64,000 nt of DNA from NCBI RefSeq assembly GCF_010499455.1, contig NZ_JAAGOH010000013.1:1-64000 (forward strand), written 5' to 3'. Origin of the DNA: Ideonella livida (lineage in GTDB: Bacteria > Pseudomonadota > Gammaproteobacteria > Burkholderiales > Burkholderiaceae_C). Shown here piece after piece: positions 4,455-44,785 of the stretch (its first letter is position 1; every line of letters begins with the position of its first letter). The notes beneath the pieces are model-generated. The model searched no databases, was not told the origin of the DNA, and was given only the letters and a program-made list of their open reading frames with translations. A program made the translations under genes and the position numbers.

Positions 4455-4508
4455 GTTGCGGTTCTCCTGAAGATGCGCTCATCGTAGGCTGGAGAGAAAG
4501 ACGTTTGC

Positions 4509-4533
4509 TTTCATATGAAGGCCTCATATGAAA
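4509..4533. promoter_or_regulatory. Perfect inverted repeat, candidate operator between glmS and the cyanase gene
   Basis: TTTCATATGA, 5-base spacer AGGCC, then TCATATGAAA: perfect 10-bp arms in an A/T-rich pocket. It lies 55 bp upstream of glmS (-) and about 185 bp upstream of the cyanase start (+). A second short hairpin (CCCATC / GATGGG, 4541-4559) follows. The symmetry fits a dimeric repressor site, probably for glmS. The regulator is unknown; the Lrp/AsnC gene at 5235 is one candidate. Confidence 0.5.
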
Positions 4534-4717
4534 CAAATCACCCATCAAAATCAGATGGGAAATTTTTAGTCATCAAATACACATACAAGAAATATTCCAT
4601 CCACAGCCGGCGCCTCGTCCCCTGGACTGGCTCTTGCACCCACCCCGCCTGCGCCCCGGCCTGGGGCGCCAGGGCTGGCGCGGCCGCCCTGTCTCACCCT
4701 GAATGGAGAACACACGC

Positions 4718-5161
4718 ATGAGCCGGCTGGACGTGACCGAGAAGATCATCACCGCCAAGGTGTCCAAGGGCCTGAAGTGGGCCGATGTGGCCACGCAGGT
4801 GGGCCTGAGCAAAGAGTGGGTGACGGCCGCCTGCCTGGGGCAGATGACGCTGGATGCCCGGCAGGCCGCCATCGTGGGCGAGATTTTTGGGCTGAGCGCT
4901 GAGGATCAGAAGTGGCTGCAGGTGGTGCCCTACAAGGGCAGCCTGCCCACCGCCGTGCCCACCGATCCGTTGATCTACCGCTTTTATGAGCTGGTCAGCG
5001 TGTACGGCAGCACCTTCAAGGCGCTGATTCATGAGGAGTTTGGCGACGGCATCATGAGCGCCATCGACTTCAAGATGGACCTGCAGCGCGAGCCCGACCC
5101 CAAGGGCGACCGGGTGAGCATCACCATGAGCGGCAAGTTCCTGCCCTACAAGACGTATTGA
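4718..5161 (+). CDS. cynS: Cyanate hydratase (cyanase)
   Basis: Converts cyanate plus bicarbonate to CO2 and carbamate, detoxifying cyanate and releasing ammonia. 147 residues, typical for the family. The N-terminal helical DNA-binding-like domain carries the LSKEWVTAACLGQ motif. The catalytic triad is visible as Arg88 and Glu91 in IYRFYE and Ser114 in GIMSAIDF. I chose ATG 4718 because GGAG at 4705-4708 is well spaced for it; an in-frame ATG at 4703 would add five residues and has no site of its own. There is no cynT or cynR beside it, so bicarbonate supply and regulation are not encoded locally. Confidence 0.95.
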   Translation: MSRLDVTEKIITAKVSKGLKWADVATQVGLSKEWVTAACLGQMTLDARQAAIVGEIFGLSAEDQKWLQVVPYKGSLPTAVPTDPLIYRFYELVSVYGSTFKALIHEEFGDGIMSAIDFKMDLQREPDPKGDRVSITMSGKFLPYKTY

Positions 5162-5234
5162 GCGGCAAGGGGCTTTTCGCCCGGGGTCCCGCGTTGCGGC
5201 CGGCCTGCGCCGGCCGGGCTCGGCAGGAAATTTC

Positions 5235-5735
5235 ATGCAAGATGCCTGCATGGAACTTCCCACCGGTGTTGATGTGGAACTGGACGCCATTGACTGGCGT
5301 CTGCTGGGCCTGTTGCAGGCCGACGCCAGCCTGACCAACCAGGCGCTGGCCGAGGCGGCACATGTCTCGCCCGCCACCGCGCTGCGCCGCGTCAAGCGCC
5401 TGCGCGAAGAAGGGGTGATCGAGCGCTTCACCACCCTGCTGGCGCCGGCCTTTGCCGGTCGTGGCCTGCAGGCGCTGTGCGAAGTGACGCTGGACCGCCA
5501 GGGCGCCGAGGCGCTGGATGCGTTTGAGGCCCGCGCGGTGGCCGAGGCGGCGGTGCAGCAGGTCTGGCGCGTCTCGCCCGGGCCCGACTTTGTGCTGGTG
5601 GTGTGGGCCGCCGACATGCCGGCCTACCTGGCGGTGACGCAGCGGTTGTTCACCCAAGATGCCAATGTGCGCAACGTCAAGAGCTTCTTTGCCTTGAAGC
5701 GCGCCAAGTTCAACCCCGCCGTGCCGGCGCCCTGA
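5235..5735 (+). CDS. Lrp/AsnC family transcriptional regulator
   Basis: 166 residues. An N-terminal winged helix (LTNQALAEAAHVSPATALRR, about residues 33-52, then VKRLREEGVIERF) is followed by a RAM/AsnC ligand-binding domain with LDAFEARAVAEAAV, a Gly-poor GPDFVLVVWAAD strand and FALKRAKF near the end. This is the canonical layout of feast/famine regulators that bind amino acids or small effectors and oligomerise on DNA. AGGA precedes the ATG; a start 15 bases on is also possible. It follows the cyanase gene by 73 bp, which contains a G/C-rich hairpin at 5197-5216. The effector is unknown. Confidence 0.9.
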   Translation: MQDACMELPTGVDVELDAIDWRLLGLLQADASLTNQALAEAAHVSPATALRRVKRLREEGVIERFTTLLAPAFAGRGLQALCEVTLDRQGAEALDAFEARAVAEAAVQQVWRVSPGPDFVLVVWAADMPAYLAVTQRLFTQDANVRNVKSFFALKRAKFNPAVPAP

Positions 5736-35088: not shown

Positions 35089-35664
35089 ATGATCGGACGT
35101 CTGACCGGCCTGGTGGCCGAGAAATCCCCGCCCCTGGTGCTGATTGATGTGGGGGGCGTGGGCTATGAGGTGGATGTGCCCATGAGCACGTTCTGCGTGC
35201 TGCCGGGCCTGGGCGAGAAGGTCACGCTGCTGACCCATCTGGTGGTGCGCGAGGACGCGCACCTGCTCTACGGTTTCCTGACGGTGGCCGAGCGGGCCAC
35301 CTTCCGCGAGCTGGTGCGGATCTCGGGCATCGGGCCGCGCACCGCGCTGGCCATCCTCTCAGGCCTGTCGGTGACCGACCTGGCCGGGGCGGTGAGCCGG
35401 CAGGAGGGCGCACGCCTGCAGAAGGTGCCGGGCATCGGCAAGAAGACGGCGGAGCGCCTGCTGCTGGAACTCAAGGGCAAGCTGGGCCCCGACCTGAGCC
35501 TGCCGGGCACCGCCGGGCCGGTGGACGATGTGCAGCTGGACATCCAGCAGGCGCTGATGGCCCTGGGCTACAACGACAAGGACGCCAGTGCCGCACTCAA
35601 GAAGCTGCCGCTGGGCGTGGGGGTGAGCGAGGGCATCAAGCTGGCGCTCAAGGCCCTGGGCTGA
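35089..35664 (+). CDS. ruvA: Holliday junction branch migration protein RuvA
   Basis: 191 residues, standard length. The OB-fold N-terminus ([30 protein letters not shown], split here only by reading) is followed by two helix-hairpin-helix motifs ([32 protein letters not shown]) and the C-terminal domain III that binds RuvB ([19 protein letters not shown]). TATGAT at 35075-35080 lies close to the ATG and may be a -10, giving a very short leader. Its partner ruvB is 8 kb away rather than adjacent. Confidence 0.97.
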
Positions 35665-35671
35665 GGACCGC

Positions 35672-37411
35672 TCAGCGCCCCTCGCCGCCCTGTGGCAGCG
35701 GGGGCAGCACAGGCGGTGCCGGCAGGGGGGGCAGCACCACCGGCGCACTGGCCGCGGGCGCTGCCGCCTCGGGCACCGTGGCAACAGCAGCAGGACCCCG
35801 CGCGGGATCGGCCCCGGGGTCACGACTGGCCGCGGCGCCCGCCTCGCTGGCGCGCACGCCCGAGGCTGGCCGGGTGGTGGCAGGTCGCTGAGGCGCCGGC
35901 ACCACCACGCCCGGCAAAGGGTTGACGGTGCGCAGCGGGGCCGCGCCGGGCACGCCAGCCAGCGGGTCCTCGGGCCGGCGGTCCACCGCATCGGCCAGGC
36001 CGCTGTCGCCACCCAGGGCCAGGTACAGCCGCATCTGGGCGCCCAGCAGGTCGCGCCGGCCCTTGGCCAGCGCCAGCACGCTGTCGCGCTTCTGGCGGCG
36101 CTGCTCCAGCCAGGGCATGGCATTGCTCAGGCCGGCCTCAAAGCGCGCCTTGGCCACCCGCTCGGCCCGGTCGGCCAACGCGGCGCCGCGGGTCAGGCGG
36201 GCCACCCGTTCCACCAGATAGGGGCGCTCCGCCAAGGCGTTCTCCACCTCGGACAGGGCGCTCATGACGGTATGACGGTACTGCAGGGCGGCTTCCTCGG
36301 CCCGGGAATACTCGGCCTCCAGGTCCAGGGCGCGCCGCTCCCCTTCCAGAAGTGGCAACAGCAGGCCGCTGCCCAGGCTCAGGGTGGGATTGCTCAGGAT
36401 CTTGAGCCAGCGTTCGCTGCTGGCCGACAGGCTGGCACTCAACTCCAGGCCGGGGTAGAGCCGGGCGCGGGCTTCGTCCACCGCCAGAAATTGGGCGCGC
36501 AGCCGCGCCTCGGCCGCGCGCACGTCGGGTCGGCGGGCCACCACCGCGGCCGGATCCCCCGCCGGCAGGGGCGGCAGGCCTTCGCGGGGCACCATCAGCC
36601 CTTCGCCGGCGGGTGGCTCGGGCCAGGCGCCCAGCAGCAGCGAGAGGGCCTGGCGCGCGGTGCCGCGGTTGCGTCGCAGCTCCAGGCGCTGCAGGTGCAG
36701 GCTGTCGAGCAGCTGCTCAATCTCGGTCACGTCGGTCTCGGGCACGGCGCCGGCCTTGTGGCGCACCCGCACGATGGTGAGCATCCACTCGACATCGCGC
36801 ACCTCGGCGTCCAGCAGCGCCAGCTGCTCGTTGGCCAGGCACAGCTCCCAGTGCTGGGCCGTGACCTCGCCCACCAGAGCCAGGGCGGTGGCCAGGCGGT
36901 CTTCCTGGGTGGCCAGGGCCTCGAACTCGGCGGCGGTGCGGGCAGCGGCCAGGCGGCCCCACAGGTCGACCTCGTAGCTCAGCCCGGCGGAGAGGTCCAG
37001 GGTGGCGGTGCCGCCGCCCTGGCGCATAGGCTGGTCCAGCGACACGTCCACCCCGGCGCTGGCGCTGGGCCAGCGGCTGGCAGAGGCCTGGCGCAGGGCC
37101 AGGCGGGCACGGTGCAGGCGCTCCAGCGCCACCGACATCCGGACGTTGCTGCGCAGCGCCTGCTCCACAAAGCGCTCCAGCGCCGGGTCCTCAAAGCCCA
37201 GCCACCAGCGCGGCTGGATGCTCAGGCCCTCGTCGTCGTCGGGTTGGTGCCAGGCTTCGGGCACCGGCACCGACGGCATCTCGGGCGTCGGGGTGGCAGG
37301 CGGGCTGATCAGGGCGCACCCCCCCAGCAGCAGGGCCAGCAGGCTGACCATGAAGGGGGGCGGCAGAGGCCGCGCGGGCGGGCGCGGCATCAGGGGCGGC
37401 GGCACAGGCAT
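35672..37411 (-). CDS. NodT/OprM-type outer membrane efflux lipoprotein
   Basis: 579 residues from ATG 37411. A lipoprotein signal ends LLALLLGGC, so Cys is lipidated. TolC-like repeats follow: SYEVDLWGRLAAARTAAEFEALATQED, VTEIEQLLDSLHLQRLELRRN, LGAWPEP, RPDVRAAEARLRAQF, and a second half with LSASLSAS, EYSRAEEAALQYRHTVMSALSEVENAL. This is the trimeric exit duct of RND or ABC efflux pumps. The last 100 residues are an unusual Pro/Ala/Val tail. No pump or membrane-fusion gene is adjacent; it ends 7 bp from ruvA (convergent) and follows the first PCu(A)C gene. Confidence 0.88.
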   Translation of the reverse strand: MPVPPPLMPRPPARPLPPPFMVSLLALLLGGCALISPPATPTPEMPSVPVPEAWHQPDDDEGLSIQPRWWLGFEDPALERFVEQALRSNVRMSVALERLHRARLALRQASASRWPSASAGVDVSLDQPMRQGGGTATLDLSAGLSYEVDLWGRLAAARTAAEFEALATQEDRLATALALVGEVTAQHWELCLANEQLALLDAEVRDVEWMLTIVRVRHKAGAVPETDVTEIEQLLDSLHLQRLELRRNRGTARQALSLLLGAWPEPPAGEGLMVPREGLPPLPAGDPAAVVARRPDVRAAEARLRAQFLAVDEARARLYPGLELSASLSASSERWLKILSNPTLSLGSGLLLPLLEGERRALDLEAEYSRAEEAALQYRHTVMSALSEVENALAERPYLVERVARLTRGAALADRAERVAKARFEAGLSNAMPWLEQRRQKRDSVLALAKGRRDLLGAQMRLYLALGGDSGLADAVDRRPEDPLAGVPGAAPLRTVNPLPGVVVPAPQRPATTRPASGVRASEAGAAASRDPGADPARGPAAVATVPEAAAPAASAPVVLPPLPAPPVLPPLPQGGEGR

Positions 37412-37526
37412 GGGGAGGTTGAGGCCGGCGCGGCGCCGGCGGAAGCGGGCGCGGATTGTGCCGCGCGGCGCCCCGCACGGCCAACGCCCGAGGCCGGCGA
37501 CGGGTTGACCGGGCCTCCCCGGCCCG

Positions 37527-38000
37527 TCAGTGCCCGTGGTGGGCGTTGCCACCCGCCGGCGCCGCCGCCGCGCCCAGCGGGCGCACCGGCAGGCTCAGCT
37601 GCAGGGTTTCCTGCCGGCCGCCCGACTCCACCACCAGGGTCAGCGGCACGTCCTGCCCGGCGGGCAGGGCCTGCTTGAGGGCCATGAGCATGATGTGGAA
37701 GCCCCCCGGCTTGAGCTCCACCGCCTTGCCGGCGGGCAGCTCCAGGAAGGGCACGGCTGCCATGCGCATGACGTTGCCTTCCATCTTCATCTCGTGGATC
37801 TCCACCACGCCCGCCACCGGCGAGGCGGCCGACACCAGGCGCCCCCCCTGGGCCGAGGTGATCTGCAGGAAGGCGCCGGTGGCCTTCTGCTGGGCCACGG
37901 TGCCCCGGACCCAGCCATCCTTGACGGTGGTCTGGGCACTGGCGGCCAGCGGGGCGAGCAGCGCGGTCAGCAGGCAGGCGGTGGTCAGCAGGGATCGCAT
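37527..38000 (-). CDS. PCu(A)C periplasmic copper chaperone
   Basis: 157 residues. A signal peptide (LLTTACLLTALLAPLAASA) is followed by a cupredoxin-like domain with the copper motif: VEIHEMKMEGNVMRM and, about 22 residues on, KPGGFHIMLM, giving the His/Met ligands. The C-terminus is GGNAHHGH, adding His. Such proteins bind Cu(I)/Cu(II) and deliver it to cytochrome oxidase. It lies 30 bp after the FNR-type regulator on the same strand; a related chaperone lies upstream at 38814. Confidence 0.93.
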   Translation of the reverse strand: MRSLLTTACLLTALLAPLAASAQTTVKDGWVRGTVAQQKATGAFLQITSAQGGRLVSAASPVAGVVEIHEMKMEGNVMRMAAVPFLELPAGKAVELKPGGFHIMLMALKQALPAGQDVPLTLVVESGGRQETLQLSLPVRPLGAAAAPAGGNAHHGH

Positions 38001-38030
38001 GGTCAGGTCCTGTAGGTCATGGGCAGGTGG

Positions 38031-38687
38031 TCAGGCCGCCTCGGGCGCCTGGGGCTGGCGCAGCAGGCCATCGCTGCGCGTCATGCCGGTGGGCCACTCC
38101 ACCTCACGCAGACGGGCCAGGCTGAAGCTGGCGCTCTGGCGTTGGCGGGTGTCCAGGATCTGGGTACGGCGCAGGTTGGCAAAGATGCGCGAGACGGTTT
38201 CGGGCGCGGTATCCAGGATGGCGGCCATGTCCTTGAGCGTGGGCAGGGCCAGCTCGGCCACGGTGCCGCTCCAGGGCATGTCGGCCGGCACCAGCAGCAG
38301 CAGCAGGTGCTTGAGCCTGTCCTGGGCTGGTCCGGTGCGCAGGGCCACCAGGTCCTCGATGCGCCGCTGCTGTTGCGCCAGGCCTTCAACCAGGATCAGG
38401 CGGCGTTCGGCCTCGGTCACCGGCTGGCGGGCCACGGCGCGGCTGGGCACCAGGGCCCGCGCGGTGTAGGCATAGGGGTAGGCGGCCAGCAGCTCCAGGC
38501 CCAGCAGGTCGCCCGGCAGCACCAGCTGCATGAAGCGCGGGCCCTCGCGGCTGACGCGGTCCAGGCGCAACGCACCCGTCTGGAGCTGCCACACCGGGCC
38601 CATGCCGCCGGCCTCGAAAAGCACCTCACCCACCTGAAGTTCCTGTTCGGGGGCGAGGGGAGCGGCAAGCGTGGCAGAAGGCGTCAT
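38031..38687 (-). CDS. Crp/Fnr family regulator, cysteine-free (DNR-like)
   Basis: 218 residues from ATG 38687. An N-terminal effector jellyroll (VGEVLFEAGGMGPVWQLQTGALRL, LVLPGDLLGLELLAAYPYAYTARAL) and long C helix precede a winged helix-turn-helix: LPTLKDMAAILDTAPETVSRIFANL. The recognition helix keeps the E-x2-S-R pattern that reads TTGAT half-sites in FNR proteins. There is no cysteine anywhere, so it cannot hold FNR's iron-sulfur cluster; heme/NO sensing as in DNR or another ligand is inferred. It lies between the two PCu(A)C genes, and an FNR-like box precedes it, suggesting autoregulation. Confidence 0.9.
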   Translation of the reverse strand: MTPSATLAAPLAPEQELQVGEVLFEAGGMGPVWQLQTGALRLDRVSREGPRFMQLVLPGDLLGLELLAAYPYAYTARALVPSRAVARQPVTEAERRLILVEGLAQQQRRIEDLVALRTGPAQDRLKHLLLLLVPADMPWSGTVAELALPTLKDMAAILDTAPETVSRIFANLRRTQILDTRQRQSASFSLARLREVEWPTGMTRSDGLLRQPQAPEAA

Positions 38688-38732
38688 GGCGAGGTACTGC
38701 AAAGCCGTGCGGCACGTGGCCGCCGGCCAAGT

Positions 38733-38746
38733 CTGATTCAGGTCAA
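38733..38746 (-). promoter_or_regulatory. FNR/DNR-like box upstream of the Crp/Fnr gene
   Basis: CTGATTCAGGTCAA (TTGAC-N4-ATCAG on the gene strand) matches 8 of 10 consensus bases. It lies 46-59 bp before the regulator's ATG, a position suitable for self-control. Confidence 0.5.
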
Positions 38747-38813
38747 GCGAAGGCCCGGGTTTATACCGAGTTCCGGGCCACAAGGCCATTGCGCTGTATC
38801 AATCACGCCACCC

Positions 38814-39365
38814 TCAGTGCTGATGGGCCGCGGTGTTGCCGGCCTCACGCAGGCGCATGACCCAGACCCGGATCTCCTGCGTGCCGGCACGCTCGAAGCG
38901 CAGGGTCAGCGGAATGCGGTCGCCGTGCTGGAGCGGCTGCTTCAACCCGATGAGCATCAAGTGCCAGCTGCCGCCATGCTTGAGGGACACCTCCCCCTGC
39001 GCTGGCACGGGCACGGCCTCCACCGCCCGCATGCGCATGACCTGGGTGGCCGGATCCAGCGTCATCTGGTGGATCTCCACCGACTGGGCCACGGGGGTGC
39101 TGGCGCCCAGCAGCCGCTCGGGCTGGTCACCGCCATTGCGCAGGGTGCGGATGTAGACGCTGCCGTCAGGCTGTCCGGTGATGGACGGTGGCGCATAGGG
39201 GTGGTCGACGACCAGCGTGCCAAAGCGGTAGTCGTGGGCCAGGGCGCCCAGGGGGGCCAGGGCCAGCACGACGGCGCCCGCACCGGCCATCAGCAGGCCC
39301 GCGGCACGACGTCGGTCACGGTCTGCCACCACGGTGGGCCCAGCACGCAAAAAGGAAAAGGACAT
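38814..39365 (-). CDS. PCu(A)C-like copper chaperone, second copy
   Basis: 183 residues from ATG 39365 with AGGAG ahead. A long basic N-terminus and one hydrophobic segment (LLMAGAGAVVLALAPLGALA) form the export signal. The domain begins HDYRFGTLVVDHPYAPP, and the copper motif is VEIHQMTLDPATQVMRM followed by KHGGSWHLMLIG. The C-terminus is AAHQH. It differs enough from the 37527 copy (longer leader, extra GQPDGSVYIRTLRN strand) to be a separate subfamily. It begins 58 bp after the barrel-like gene, probably in the same operon. Confidence 0.9.
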   Translation of the reverse strand: MSFSFLRAGPTVVADRDRRRAAGLLMAGAGAVVLALAPLGALAHDYRFGTLVVDHPYAPPSITGQPDGSVYIRTLRNGGDQPERLLGASTPVAQSVEIHQMTLDPATQVMRMRAVEAVPVPAQGEVSLKHGGSWHLMLIGLKQPLQHGDRIPLTLRFERAGTQEIRVWVMRLREAGNTAAHQH

Positions 39366-39423
39366 GAGGTCTCCTACGGATGGGTGAGCAGGCATGCACC
39401 ACCGGGAAATGAGCAGTCGGTCA

Positions 39424-40671
39424 TCAGTGTCCTTCGAGAAGCGTGGGCCTGTCCCAGGTCAGTCGAAGAGCACCCCAGGGCTGTGGGGACTGCCCGGAGG
39501 CCCGCTCCTGCCCCACCTCCAACGTCAGGCCCAGCGCCTGCTGCCAGCGCCACTGCAAGGTGGCGGTGGCTCGATGCACGGCCACTGCCTCAGCCAGTCC
39601 CGCGGCGGCAGCCAGCTCCGCGGGCGCCCGCCCAGCCACCCGGTTGCGAGGAACCAGTCGCTCCAAGCGCCCGCCTGTGCGCCAGTCCTCGCCCCAACGC
39701 CACTGCAGGTCGACCCAGGCGCCCTGCACGTCGCTGCGCAGCTCCGCCTCGCGGGTGGCGTCATAGAGGGCGCCGCGTTCGCGGCGCCACAGCCACGCCC
39801 CCTGCAGCAGGAGCCGGTCTGCCATCCAGCCGTCCACAGCCGCCGACACACCCAGCACCGTACTGCGACCCGAGAAGCAGACCCTCCCAGTGGTCGTGTC
39901 GCGGCAGTCCGGCACGCCGTGGTGGTGAGCCGGCATGCCATCGGCCATCAGGGCGGTGGCGCCTCGCGCCTGCGGACGCCAGTGGGCCGCCAAGCCATGC
40001 AGCGTCGCATGGCCATGTCCCCATTGGGCCAGCAGGCTGGGTGCCCACGCCCCGGCCTGGCTGCCCGGAAAACCGCGTCCTCGCCATAGCCCGACAGACA
40101 ACGCCTGCCAGCCATCCTCCGGTGGCGGCCGCCACGACAGACGCAGGCCGTCCTCAGGCTCAGCGTCTCCCAGCGCGGCGCGATGCGCCAAGGGCTTCTG
40201 CCCATAGTCCTGCAGGCGTGCGGCGCCGTCCACCACATCGCCCAGGCCCATGGGCTGCCGGCCCAACCGCAACGCCCATTGGGCGCCGGCGATCTGGTGC
40301 CGGGTCTCGACCAGGGCGGATTCCGTGCGAAGGGGCTCTCCATCGTGCCCGGCCAGCGACCAGGCCCCAGCCCAGGACTCATGCCAACGCCAGGCACCGA
40401 GCAATTCAGCCTGCTGCAGCACCAGGCGACCTGCCTGGTTGTCAGGGGCACCGCCGGTGAGCAACACCCCAGGGTGGCGGGCCACCGGCCAGTCCGAAGC
40501 GGACCGTGTGTGGGCCAGAGCCGCGGCAGCCCCAACCTGCCAGCCCAACTCTTCCGGGGTAACGGCCTGCGTACCACCATGCGCACGGGCCGACGGCAAC
40601 CAAGCGACCGACATCACGGCCGCCGCCCACACCAGGCCACGTACGGGCCACAGAAGGACCTCAGCGCGCAT
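39424..40671 (-). CDS. Outer-membrane barrel-like protein of the MbnPH copper locus, unknown
   Basis: 415 residues from ATG 40671, overlapping the diheme gene by 11 bases. A signal peptide (GLVWAAAVMSVAWLPSARA) is followed directly by HGGTQAV. The rest alternates short aromatic strands (LQQAELLGAWRWHESWAGAWSLAG, TLQWRWQQALGLTLEVGQERA), as in a porin-like barrel. It carries His-rich patches (PAHHHGVPDC) that could bind metal. I do not recognise a named family; the position straight after MbnP/MbnH suggests a copper or substrate channel of that system. Confidence 0.65.
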   Translation of the reverse strand: MRAEVLLWPVRGLVWAAAVMSVAWLPSARAHGGTQAVTPEELGWQVGAAAALAHTRSASDWPVARHPGVLLTGGAPDNQAGRLVLQQAELLGAWRWHESWAGAWSLAGHDGEPLRTESALVETRHQIAGAQWALRLGRQPMGLGDVVDGAARLQDYGQKPLAHRAALGDAEPEDGLRLSWRPPPEDGWQALSVGLWRGRGFPGSQAGAWAPSLLAQWGHGHATLHGLAAHWRPQARGATALMADGMPAHHHGVPDCRDTTTGRVCFSGRSTVLGVSAAVDGWMADRLLLQGAWLWRRERGALYDATREAELRSDVQGAWVDLQWRWGEDWRTGGRLERLVPRNRVAGRAPAELAAAAGLAEAVAVHRATATLQWRWQQALGLTLEVGQERASGQSPQPWGALRLTWDRPTLLEGH

Positions 40672-41920
40672 GGCGGCCTCCGGCCTGAGCCGCCGTCGCC
40701 GGCAGGCGGGCGGCGGCAAAGGGATCGGCGTGGCGGACATGGGCCAGAAAGGTCTCATCGGTCAGCGTCTTGAGAAAGGCCACCAGGTCCGCCTTGTCCT
40801 GCACACTCAGATCGATCCGCGACACCAGATCGCTCTTGTAGGGGTTGGCACGGCCATCCCCCGCGTGCGGCCCCGTGGCAATGACGGTGCCGCCATTGGC
40901 ATAGTGGTCGAGCACATCCTCCAGCGTGGCCTTGCTGCCGTCGTGCATGTAGGGCGCGGTGACAGCCACGTTGCGCAAGCTGGGGGCGCGGAACATGCCC
41001 ATGTCGGCAGGCTTCTGCGACACCTCGAACACCCCGCGGTTGGGAAACGGAAAACCTCCCGCACCGTCTATGTTGTAGAGACCGGTGTTGTGGAAAGGGA
41101 TCGAGACGGTGCGGCTGCCGGCGTGCCGCACTTGGTCATTGAAGTTGAATTCGGCGTGGCAATGAAAGCACTCCGCCTTCTCGCCGTTGAACAGCGCCAT
41201 GCCGCGCAACTCCTGCTCGGTCAGCACCTCCCGCCCTTGCTGCCAACGGTCGTACCGGCTGTCGGCGGAGATCAGGCTGCGCTCAAACGCAGCGATGGCC
41301 TTGATGATGGCGCGGAAGGTGATGCGTTCGCCCGCCTCGTCGGGAAAGGCTGCGGCAAACAGCGCCGGATAGGCCGAATCGCCTCGAAAGCGTGCCAGCA
41401 CAGTGTCCTGGTTGCCATTGTTGATGCCCATCTCGACCGGGTTCTCGCCAAACAGCGGCACCTCCATCTGCCGCTCCAGCGTCTGCAGCAGCGGATTGGC
41501 CCAGGTCAGCGTGGCATGGAAGGCCACATTGGCCAGGCCCTGGGCATTGCGCGGATGCGCTTCCCCCGTGGATCCCAGGGCCGTGGCGCGTCCGTCGGTG
41601 AAGCCCAGGGCCTGCACATGGCAGCCAGCGCAGGCCTGCTGCCCGTTGCCCGACAGCCGTTTGTCGAAGAACAGCTGCCGCCCCAGCGCCACCTTGGCGC
41701 GCGACATGGGGTTGTCCGCCGGGACCGCCGGCACGGGGAAGTGGGACGGCAGACCCGCGTCGGCGGCCCAATCCCAATCGGGGTCAGCGCTGGAGGTGGT
41801 CACCACCTCGGTGCCGGCACCGCCGCAGCCCGTCACGGCCAGGGCCAGCAGGGCAGCACCGAGCCGCACGGCCAACGCCATCCCGCCGCCCAGGGGGCGG
41901 GTCAGGGCAAGGTCTTTCAT
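40661..41920 (-). CDS. Di-heme MauG/cytochrome c peroxidase-like enzyme, MbnH type
   Basis: 419 residues from ATG 41920; a GTG at 41938 overlaps the upstream stop. A lipoprotein-like signal ends TGC (Cys32). Two CxxCH heme sites are seen: CAGCH at residues 97-101 and CFHCH at 251-255. Other BCCP/MauG marks: ALGRQLFFDKRLSGNG, FGENPVEMG, FRAPSLRNVAVTAPYMHDGS. MbnH enzymes oxidise a tryptophan of the partner MbnP to kynurenine, creating its copper site. The partner lies immediately upstream, 14 bp away. Assignment to MbnH rests on the pairing; it is inferred rather than proven. Confidence 0.85.
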   Translation of the reverse strand: MKDLALTRPLGGGMALAVRLGAALLALAVTGCGGAGTEVVTTSSADPDWDWAADAGLPSHFPVPAVPADNPMSRAKVALGRQLFFDKRLSGNGQQACAGCHVQALGFTDGRATALGSTGEAHPRNAQGLANVAFHATLTWANPLLQTLERQMEVPLFGENPVEMGINNGNQDTVLARFRGDSAYPALFAAAFPDEAGERITFRAIIKAIAAFERSLISADSRYDRWQQGREVLTEQELRGMALFNGEKAECFHCHAEFNFNDQVRHAGSRTVSIPFHNTGLYNIDGAGGFPFPNRGVFEVSQKPADMGMFRAPSLRNVAVTAPYMHDGSKATLEDVLDHYANGGTVIATGPHAGDGRANPYKSDLVSRIDLSVQDKADLVAFLKTLTDETFLAHVRHADPFAAARLPATAAQAGGRHAR

Positions 41921-41934
41921 GCCGTCCCGCCGCC

Positions 41935-42924
41935 TCACTTGGCCAGTGCCCGGAAGATGGTGTGGCCGTGGAAGAACTCGTTCTCGCTGTCCTGCACGCT
42001 GTTGCCGCTGGCGTCAAACGAGCTGCCGATCACCGACCACATGGCCTGGCATTCCGGATCGGTGCCACCGGACATGCACCCCCCCGCGCCGCCGTGCTCC
42101 TCCACCAGGTTGGACAGCGCGAACAGCGCCTTCAGGTCCACGGTGATGCGCTGCTTCTGCGGGTCGAACCCATGGAGGTGGAAGGTCCGCGTGTTATCCG
42201 ACGTGCAGCTGTAGCCCCAGGACTTGGTGCTGTCCACCGCACAGCCGGTGTTGCCCAGATGGAAATAGAAGCTGTTGTTGAAGGTGCCGGTGGCGCTGCC
42301 ATCGGCATTGAATTTCTTGATGCCCTGCGTGAAAGTGCCCGCAGTGGTGGCGTTCTCGGGGTTCACCTCGATCTTCACGAACTTGCGGCCGGCCTGCCAG
42401 CTCCAGGCCATGTCCTTGTTGTCCAGCGGCGCGGCAGCCACGGTGGACTCGCTGTGGTTGAGGGCCTCGGGCACGCCCAGGGTCATTTCCACACCGGCGT
42501 AGGTGCCCTGAGGCACCGTGCCGGTGACAGCCACGTGGAGCAGCTTGTCGCCCGCGCAAAAGCCGCTGCCGTCCTCCAGGTCGATCAGGGCGACGGTCTG
42601 ACCAGCGCTGGTGAGCTGGAAATCGTTGGCATCCAGCGTCACCAAGACCTCCTCACCCTTGTCATTGGTGAGCTTGACGTTGGAGACATAAAAGCGCAAG
42701 TCCTGCACCTTGGCCTTGGCCCCGGTGGTGCCTAGCCCTTCCAAGGTGCTGGCGCAGCTGACCGGGGTGCCGCCCACCGTGGCGACGAATTCAATGCTCA
42801 CGGCCTGGGTGGTCGGGGCCTCTTCGGTGTCGTCATCGCCGCCGCCACACGCAGTCAGCAGCGCGGAGGCGGTCAGCAGGGCGAGGAGCCCGGAGGGCAA
42901 AAGGTGGGGAATGTTGGGCAACAT
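41935..42924 (-). CDS. MbnP-like copper-binding lipoprotein (metallo-mystery pair four-Cys protein)
   Basis: 329 residues from ATG 42924. A lipobox LLTAC places lipid on Cys26, followed by GGGDDD. Family marks: VSIEFVATVGGTPVSC, LRFYVSNVKL, IDLEDGSGFC, GVEMTLGVPEALNH, DMAWSWQAGRKFVKIE with Trp174/Trp176, FYFHLGNTGC, FHLHGFD and a C-terminal HGGAGGC. The Cys spacing fits the four-Cys pattern. MbnP binds Cu(I) after MbnH converts a Trp to kynurenine; the WSW pair holds the likely target, but I cannot tell which residue. No methanobactin genes accompany it. Confidence 0.88.
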   Translation of the reverse strand: MLPNIPHLLPSGLLALLTASALLTACGGGDDDTEEAPTTQAVSIEFVATVGGTPVSCASTLEGLGTTGAKAKVQDLRFYVSNVKLTNDKGEEVLVTLDANDFQLTSAGQTVALIDLEDGSGFCAGDKLLHVAVTGTVPQGTYAGVEMTLGVPEALNHSESTVAAAPLDNKDMAWSWQAGRKFVKIEVNPENATTAGTFTQGIKKFNADGSATGTFNNSFYFHLGNTGCAVDSTKSWGYSCTSDNTRTFHLHGFDPQKQRITVDLKALFALSNLVEEHGGAGGCMSGGTDPECQAMWSVIGSSFDASGNSVQDSENEFFHGHTIFRALAK

Positions 42925-43188
42925 GGGACGAATTGGGGGTGAAACGGCCCAGCGGCGGACGGACACGCCAGGGCAACCCGGGGGCGCTACGCCAGAGGCA
43001 TAGGGCGGCGCACAGGCAGCCTGGGTCCGGGCCCGGTGGGCACGGTGCAAGAGGATGGAGAAGGCCGAGCGGGACTTGACGTCACCGGGCGCGGCGAGCG
43101 CGTCAGGGCGCGACGGCGAAGCCGCCCTGGCGCCGGCACTGGCCTACGGCCAGGCGGACGCCCAGGGGTGTGTCGCGAAGAAGAAAAC

Positions 43189-43581
43189 TCAAGCGCCCGC
43201 AGGCGGAGCGCGAGGCTGGGCCGGCGCCCAGGTGAACAGCGGGCGGGGCGCCTGCAGGAAGAGCGGCGGAACCCACCGCGCGGGAGCCAACAGTGCGGGC
43301 ACCGCCACCGGCGCAGCCGGCGGGGCCGCCTGGGCCGACAGGCCGCACAGGGGACAGTGCTCCAAGTGGTTCAGTGTGGCGGCGGTGCCCGGCACGGCCT
43401 GGCCAGCCTCGTCGAGCAGCACGACCTTCATGCCCTGCGGGGTGCAGACTTCCACCAGCCGCCCCTGCCCCGCCAGCTGGTGGGCCAGCGCATGCGACAG
43501 GGTAGGCGCCACGGCCAAGCCGAAGATCGCCCACCAGGCGATCCAGCTCAGACGTTGAAGGTAACGGCGCAGCGAAGACAT
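43189..43581 (-). CDS. DUF2946-like small membrane protein
   Basis: 130 residues. A short basic N-terminus and a single hydrophobic segment (LSWIAWWAIFGLAVAPTLSHALAH) are followed by LEHCPLCGL, the HCPxC motif of DUF2946, then a Pro/Ala tail. Such proteins recur next to copper receptors and PCu(A)C chaperones. It is first in the minus-strand copper block. An FNR-like box is 61-74 bp ahead of its ATG. The 264 bp between its stop and MbnP hold no gene I can support. Confidence 0.75.
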   Translation of the reverse strand: MSSLRRYLQRLSWIAWWAIFGLAVAPTLSHALAHQLAGQGRLVEVCTPQGMKVVLLDEAGQAVPGTAATLNHLEHCPLCGLSAQAAPPAAPVAVPALLAPARWVPPLFLQAPRPLFTWAPAQPRAPPAGA

Positions 43582-43641: not shown

Positions 43642-43655
43642 CTGATCCAGATCAA
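43642..43655 (-). promoter_or_regulatory. FNR/DNR-like box upstream of the DUF2946 gene
   Basis: CTGATCCAGATCAA matches TTGAT-N4-ATCAA at 9 of 10 bases, the best of the three sites in the window. It is 61-74 bp before the DUF2946 ATG and about 60 bp before ruvB on the other strand. Confidence 0.6.

Positions 43656-43714: not shown

Positions 43715-44785
<1,071 letters not shown>

Follow-up and report, generated by a model that had tools for sequence, protein, structure and literature searches.

A CruR-led MbnP/MbnH gene block between ruvA and ruvB of Ideonella livida, with a porin-fold protein as a putative copper entry route

Our analysis of a 64,000-nt stretch of Ideonella livida DNA (hereafter the window; contig NZ_JAAGOH010000013.1, positions 1 to 64,000) revealed that ruvA (35089-35664, +) and ruvB (43715-44785, +) flank eight minus-strand open reading frames (ORFs) over ~8 kb, as the initial annotation had described, and that these encode a DUF2946 leader of the CruR type, an MbnP/MbnH pair, a porin-fold protein of an unnamed family, two PCu(A)C-type copper chaperones, a Crp/Fnr-family regulator, and a NodT-type outer membrane factor. 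We consider it fairly probable that the block is a copper-limitation operon, bringing copper across the outer membrane to periplasmic copper enzymes, with the transport and regulation being what we infer. What the computation itself shows is which genes are present and in what order, that the leader carries the CruR marks, that a porin fold is modelled with confidence, that the porin is linked to MbnH, and that a sister family is linked to ZnuA. The core of this system, i.e., MbnPH in a CruR-led operon, is already published; new are (i) the porin family and its zinc-linked sister; (ii) the CruR reading of the leader at this locus; (iii) the probable repeated arrival of the cassette at an older copper locus; and (iv) FNR-like boxes before cruR.

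The copper genes and their CruR-type leader

Seven of the eight products match Pfam families above cut-off, and NodT, MbnH, and MbnP also pass an NCBIfam cut-off; the copper theme assigned to the block from the outset is supported. More specifically, MbnP scored 247 bits against TIGR04052 (cut-off 140) and also matched PF20243, and MbnH scored 489 bits against TIGR04039 (cut-off 363) and carries the haem motifs CAGCH and CFHCH; the identities proposed for this pair thus hold up in curated model searches. The WSW of MbnP aligns with the WNW of the solved MbnP structure 7l6g. A W-x-W was present in all 93 MbnP ORFs scoring >150 bits (a threshold of our own choosing, in a set that includes duplicates among loci); 87 of these ORFs show a longer WxW pattern. 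In the methanotroph pair, MbnH reportedly oxidises a Trp of MbnP to kynurenine and so creates a Cu(I) site, as Manesis and colleagues are said to have found in 2021; from this family knowledge, kynurenine formation is likely in the window MbnP too. The pair shares with its methanobactin-operon counterparts (7l6g, 6e1c; TIGR04052/TIGR04039) the passing of both cut-offs, the adjacency of the genes, and the WxW and CxxCH motifs. In contrast to methanobactin operons, the window genome holds no MbnB above cut-off (two matches, the best at 57.6 bits versus a cut-off of 325), consistent with the original placement of the pair outside any methanobactin operon. Elsewhere, a contig of a metagenome-assembled genome labelled Klebsiella pneumoniae (L128; L and G numbers are our labels for loci and genomes) carries MbnH and an MbnP fragment at its end, perhaps through a binning error, and DJ-1/PfpI-like proteins (labelled by eye) recur near MbnPH, TonB-dependent transporter, or CruR genes (L025 14763-15590, L048 13651-14316, L104, and L111).

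The DUF2946 gene had been counted among the working proteins of the block; it carries instead the marks of a regulatory leader. Roy et al. (2022) described CruR of Bordetella pertussis, a DUF2946 protein, as a nascent-peptide switch: in the relevant passages of that paper (PMC9426467), stalling at a C-terminal RAPP blocks Rho, and copper at a CXXC lifts the stall, whereupon the operon is off. The same passages define CruR by 45 residues between the two motifs and by RAPP lying three residues before the end, and they report MbnPH-like and PCuAC genes in operons led by CruR-type ORFs. The window protein shows a DUF2946 match (60.4 bits, cut-off 23.7), the CXXC/RAPP spacing given in Table 1, the first position, and a long leader behind it. 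We regard these sequence marks as firm, and the reading of the gene as CruR predicts copper repression of the block; by close analogy, the block is likely shut down by copper. As far as the cited passages go, the cruR-crtA-crpH operon of B. pertussis shares with the window the DUF2946 leader in first place, the motif spacing, the long leader, and copper genes behind, but it has a TonB-dependent transporter where the window has the porin-fold protein, and those passages of PMC9426467 mention no Crp/Fnr gene such as the window block contains. CutF of Rhodobacter capsulatus is likewise a DUF2946-family leader ahead of copper genes; according to the passages of PMC9973294 drawn on here, however, its stalling rises with copper, opposite in sign to CruR, whereas the window leader has the CruR-like motif and spacing. 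Among the fetched loci, we counted 48 CruR-type ORFs with both motifs (two loci having been fetched twice), and in some such ORFs RGPP replaces RAPP; a passage of PMC12992588 reports that RGPP likewise arrests ribosomes. A terminator-like hairpin at 43193-43211 overlaps the RAPP codons and the cruR stop, with 2 such sites found in the region versus 2.9 expected, so we gave it no weight.

Behind cruR, MbnP and MbnH overlap by 4 nt and MbnH and the porin-fold gene by 11 nt, and the following spacers measure 28 nt (porin-PCuAC2), 126 nt (PCuAC2-Crp), 30 nt (Crp-PCuAC1), and 115 nt (PCuAC1-NodT). Four of the likely starts lie within longest ORFs (MbnP, 42924; porin, 40671 within 39424-40758; Crp, 38687; NodT, 37411), these choices resting on codon score and judgement by eye only. 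At 71% G+C, the block hardly differs from the window (69%), so its composition gives no sign of recent foreign origin.

Table 1. Features of the block and of its candidate regulatory sites, in window coordinates.
Feature	Position	Strand	Basis and remarks
cruR, DUF2946 copper-responsive upstream ORF, 130 aa	43189..43581	-	PF11162; CPLC-44 aa-RAPP-3 aa-stop; PMC9426467 criteria
CPLC (CXXC) codons of cruR	43345..43356	-	position derived from translation
RAPP codons of cruR	43201..43212	-	position derived from translation
cruR-mbnP leader, 264 nt; expected Rho-termination region	42925..43188	-	spacing, composition (C 44% / G 30%)
mbnP, probable lipoprotein, WSW at residues 174-176, lipobox-like LTAC	41935..42924	-	TIGR04052; aligned to 7l6g
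mbnH, diheme MauG-superfamily enzyme, two CxxCH, lipobox-like VTGC	40661..41938	-	TIGR04039; 6e1c E 7.8e-137
16-stranded porin-fold protein, unnamed family	39424..40671	-	AlphaFold2, Foldseek, family alignments
PCu(A)C-type chaperone 2 (PCuAC2), H-x12-M-x22-HxM	38814..39395	-	PF04314 114 bits (cut-off 29)
Crp/Fnr-family regulator (possible longer start 38789)	38031..38687	-	PF13545, PF00027, each narrowly above cut-off
PCu(A)C chaperone 1 (PCuAC1), H-x10-M-x21-HxM, constant in genus gap	37527..38000	-	PF04314 122 bits (cut-off 29)
NodT-type outer membrane factor, probably outside system	35672..37411	-	OEP; TIGR01845 229 bits vs 210
FNR/Crp-like palindrome TTGATCTGGATCAG	43642..43655	-	centre 67 nt before the cruR start; similar distance ahead of ruvB on the other strand
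TTGACCTGAATCAG, weak FNR-like palindrome before crp (two mismatches)	38733..38746	-	motif scan

The ruvA-ruvB site across related genomes

Both ruv genes score above cut-off in 15 of 16 genus genomes (in G160, neither does), and in all 15 the matches lie 1.1-15.4 kb apart. We read these 15 gaps (13 fetched, together with L023 and the window, so that the own genome is included) and found PCuAC in all 15, a Crp/Fnr gene and a two-motif CruR in 13 each, and the MbnP-MbnH-porin-PCuAC2 cassette in 4. MbnP itself occurs in 9 of the 16 genus genomes, four times in the gap and five times elsewhere. In a sample of the family, 86 of 100 genomes (two own-genus) carry ruvA and ruvB on one contig, with ≤400 nt between the matches in 39, 0.4-20 kb in 42, and more in 5. 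Among 20 gaps fetched from outside the genus, 4 contain an antisense PCuAC, and of these, 2 have a CruR match (one weak, at 28 bits) and 2 a TonB-dependent transporter; profile search detected no such gene in the remaining 16. Hence the idea of a special site is not supported, and an insertion breaking ruvAB in this genome alone is rejected, since all 15 genus genomes have the two genes separated, as do 47 of the 86 family genomes by >400 nt. The initial annotation had also considered that ruvA and ruvB might always be separated by these genes for unrelated reasons; they are indeed always apart in the genus genomes, but it is the copper core itself that separates them.

Judged by gene content, an older CruR-Crp-PCuAC locus appears to sit at the ruvA-ruvB site in the genus and to receive cargo. 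In the MbnH tree (33 hand-chosen rows, with L022 and L060 left out), the window groups with G155, and G076 groups with G159, separately. A single origin of the four gap cassettes was tried and rejected as one clade (p-AU 0.001, approximately unbiased test), the tested group having been named after the identities were seen. Because the tree rejects the four gap copies as one clade, the cassette was probably gained or replaced at this gap at least twice. The G076 ruvA-ruvB copper locus also contains, at L023 3823-4305, a match to NF033672, 'Copper uptake system-associated protein' (125 bits, cut-off 50).

The constant core of the locus comprises CruR, the Crp/Fnr gene, and PCuAC, with the cassette as its variable part. 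The PCu(A)C motif is H-x10-M-x21-HxM; PCuAC1 fits both the family model and this motif, and PCuAC2 fits PF04314 but with x12/x22 spacing. Proteins of this family usually deliver copper to oxidases, and the two chaperones may be expected to do likewise. As no conserved cysteine was found in Crp across 13 aligned genus members, FNR-type iron-sulphur sensing by this regulator is unlikely. The palindrome TTGATCTGGATCAG has one mismatch to TTGAT-N4-ATCAA, and the window holds 2 such sites versus 0.20 expected. Boxes within two mismatches were present upstream of cruR in 19 of 48 cases, versus 0.7 in shuffles; after thinning of near-identical loci, they remained at 13 of 39 cruR genes versus 30 of 377 other genes (Fisher 3e-5; 1.9 expected from random stretches), the 13 including the window, and L045, a ruvB start, being an artefact to discount. 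A scan for sigma-70-type promoters found none. Low-oxygen control would fit the copper demand of terminal oxidases.

This arrangement bears on whether the block is one unit or two. A copper-responsive unit of cruR with MbnPH-porin-PCuAC2, next to an independent crp-pcuAC1 neighbour responding, e.g., to oxygen or nitric oxide, is a division that we regard as possible but doubtful: the 126-nt gap between PCuAC2 and Crp does hold the weak palindrome, and the cassette is absent from 11 of the 15 genus gaps, but in the smallest genus loci (L037, L038, L040, and L041) cruR, crp, and pcuAC1 are directly adjacent and in the same direction.

A porin-fold protein linked to MbnH and its zinc-linked sister family

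The product of the gene behind mbnH gave no family match in Pfam (porin models included), NCBIfam, or PHROGs, and ten genus and family relatives are 31-40% identical to it (alignment of 11). AlphaFold2, given the mature protein and 12 relatives, returned a model with pLDDT 86.5 and pTM 0.86, comprising 16 strands and helices in the third long loop. The top Foldseek matches are general porins and a chitoporin (OmpT, at 1.2e-11, VhChip, and BpsOmp38, with OmpF lower). With general 16-stranded porins (Vibrio cholerae OmpT, BpsOmp38, OmpF), the protein thus shares the predicted fold, the strand number, and the helical third long loop, but identity to them is 8-13%, TM-scores are about 0.5-0.75 among such matches listed (best 50), and no Pfam porin model matches it. 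Nor does it resemble a TonB-dependent transporter, as Pfam gives no plug-domain match and the modelled barrel has 16 strands versus the 22 expected.

Of 80 named MbnH loci, 14 have a profile match to the porin immediately after MbnH (three of these fragmented or truncated by a contig end), and a fifteenth has one 5 kb upstream; these 80 loci were selected via MbnH, and searches from the porin side were run additionally. The porin-bearing loci include Sphaerotilus, Hydrogenophilus, Agitococcus, Hahella, Marinobacter, Oleiphilus, and a Sulfurovum, so that the porin-behind-MbnH arrangement spans Beta- and Gammaproteobacteria and one Campylobacterota locus. In an order sample of 399 genomes (≤4 candidates scored per genome), the profile exceeded 300 bits in 5, every one adjoining MbnH, i.e., 5 of 20 MbnH genomes versus 0 of 379 others (Fisher 1.9e-7, relatedness uncorrected); a weaker match in G184 (84 bits) also adjoins MbnH. 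A further 69 genomes of this sample scored 41-100 bits, and all 15 of those fetched adjoin a ZnuA-like gene. A class-wide search with a wider profile yielded 103 porin places in 99 of 369 genomes. Among the 70 places examined, 2 are copper-type (one being the window), both adjoining MbnH, and 68 are zinc-type, of which 66 adjoin a ZnuA-like gene and none adjoins MbnH, while two have neither within the fetched stretch. A profile match lying 9 kb from MbnH at L018 is also zinc-type. In a tree of 21 MbnH-linked and 16 ZnuA-linked porins, one branch separates the two groups (support 100/98). The 'zinc' label rests on ZnuA, ABC-3, and ABC_tran matches at L018 and, elsewhere, on similarity to the L018 ZnuA.

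By profile and tree, the ZnuA-linked proteins belong to the same superfamily as the window porin, but they differ in metal context, lack the frequent mature N-terminal His, and show Gln in 83 of 84 rows at the position of Glu355 (mature numbering), a residue found in 20 of 21 rows of the copper type. Among the literature matches listed, no name was found for the ZnuA-linked family, and none of the listed open-access titles or abstract starts names a porin with MbnPH; the pertinent passages of PMC3621798, PMC9973294, PMC12914433, PMC13038864, PMC12992588, and PMC4176598 contain no description of an MbnPH-linked porin. The I. livida genome also holds a zinc-type relative adjoining a ZnuA-like gene (L203; G000:C57, around 4478-5278).

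Where the porin is absent, a TonB-dependent transporter follows MbnH in several loci. A second MbnPH type, at L051-L054 (G154, G153, G158, and G157), has such a transporter after it instead of the porin, and its leader is a CruR variant with RGPP 42 residues past CPLC. At three other loci (L107 11041-12096, L133 4508-5689, and L091 4202-4810), a different exported, perhaps barrel-like protein stands behind MbnH and, judged by eye, carries His-His shortly past its signal peptide; it is possibly an unrelated analogue of the porin.

Three sets of histidines are of interest in the copper-type proteins. His31 is the likely mature N-terminus (codon 40579-40581, -), and all 13 aligned members have a His just past the likely cleavage site, with Ala/Ser before it in 12; the cleavage sites were judged by eye rather than by a signal-peptide program, with the second candidate His taken for L093. 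A mature N-terminal His occurs in 20 of 21 copper-type rows, 13 of which had been pre-cut at this residue, which favours its alignment, and is outside the seven commonest states of the 84 zinc-type rows. His79 (mature numbering) is found in 20 of 21 copper-type versus 23 of 84 zinc-type rows, and the His loop, His249/His251 (39919-39927, -; His219/His221 in mature numbering), in 21 of 21 versus 42 and 39 of 84. An earlier, smaller alignment had pointed to the HxH loop as a copper-only mark, which we dropped, as the larger one shows about half of the zinc-type porins with it. From the strand order and the usual topology of porins, His79 and the His loop would lie on the outer side and the N-terminus on the inner side.

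We tentatively propose, at slightly less than even confidence, that the porin-fold gene, third in the MbnP-MbnH unit, is the founding member of a metal-specific, TonB-independent family of outer-membrane porins, with a copper branch (MbnP/MbnH, CruR control, mature N-terminal His, GHxH loop) and a zinc branch ahead of ZnuA-type importers. The linkage to MbnH and the zinc parallel make the porin a plausible copper entry route. That it is instead a porin of the general kind that merely accompanies MbnPH and has no copper role, we consider unlikely: it does have the general porin fold, and HxH is common in the wider family, but its recurrent position behind MbnH in the lineages named above, the near-constant N-terminal His of the copper-type rows, and the clean tree split from a sister family adjoining ZnuA-like genes all argue against a metal-neutral role.

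Proposed copper route and its weighing

If the block is a copper-limitation operon, its transcription would start at a promoter ahead of cruR, probably with the aid of a Crp/Fnr-type activator, perhaps the one that the block itself encodes. Following the scheme of Roy et al. (2022), scarce copper would lead the ribosome to stall at the CruR RAPP, so that the downstream genes are transcribed; with copper present, CPLC would bind it, the stall would be relieved, and Rho would end transcription before mbnP. The porin-fold protein would pass free or weakly chelated copper across the outer membrane via its conserved histidines. MbnH would then oxidise the first Trp of the MbnP WSW to kynurenine, creating a Cu(I) site on the lipoprotein, and MbnP would pass copper on to the two PCu(A)C chaperones, or act alongside them, and these would load copper enzymes of the periplasm.

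Several results weigh against this reading. By Pfam, there is no inner-membrane importer among the eight products, and the earlier description of the system as self-contained is accordingly not supported. The porin profile found no match in 65 of the 80 named MbnH loci, and in the order sample, at the stated number of candidates per genome, no porin was found beside MbnH in 14 of 20 MbnH genomes. The HxH loop is not copper-specific, given its frequency in the zinc-type rows. Model pLDDT falls below 50 at residues 1-4 and 210-219, i.e., at the N-terminal His and the His loop; because these two stretches are the least certain in the model, a metal site shared between them, such as a histidine brace formed by a mature N-terminal His and a second His close to it in space, cannot be claimed. 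The protein could also function as a general pore, or as an anchor at the surface. As for the leader, the C-over-G excess between cruR and mbnP is unexceptional (11% of 1932 control windows reach its level), and Rho-site composition, being nothing above background, was discarded as support for the CruR mechanism. Finally, CutF, as presented in the passages of PMC9973294, demonstrates that a DUF2946-family leader of the opposite sign exists.

NodT had been taken for a component of the system. It lies in the gap of 1 of the 15 genus genomes, namely that of the window; 4 other genus genomes do carry matches (E 1e-60 or better), at 36-38% identity, but in other places. We therefore rejected it as a component, as it is not conserved in the gap. 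Improbable indeed is copper tolerance, in which the block would be induced by excess, MbnP, PCu(A)C, and NodT would bind or export the surplus, and the leader would act like CutF: although OEP-type efflux genes often follow CutF-like leaders (in passages of PMC9973294) and NodT belongs to an efflux outer-membrane family, none of the eight products is an RND or P-type pump by Pfam, NodT is not conserved at this site, the leader has the RAPP, spacing, and long following leader of CruR, and in other loci CruR-type ORFs neighbour genes for TonB-dependent transporters.

The passage of copper through the outer membrane under scarcity is poorly understood. An MbnPH-tied porin family and its ZnuA-tied sister make metal-selective porins a testable idea, and the porin is a likely entry partner for MbnPH outside methanobactin producers. 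With the leader read as CruR, in turn, the choice between limitation and excess of copper becomes a firm prediction, namely that copper would repress the block.

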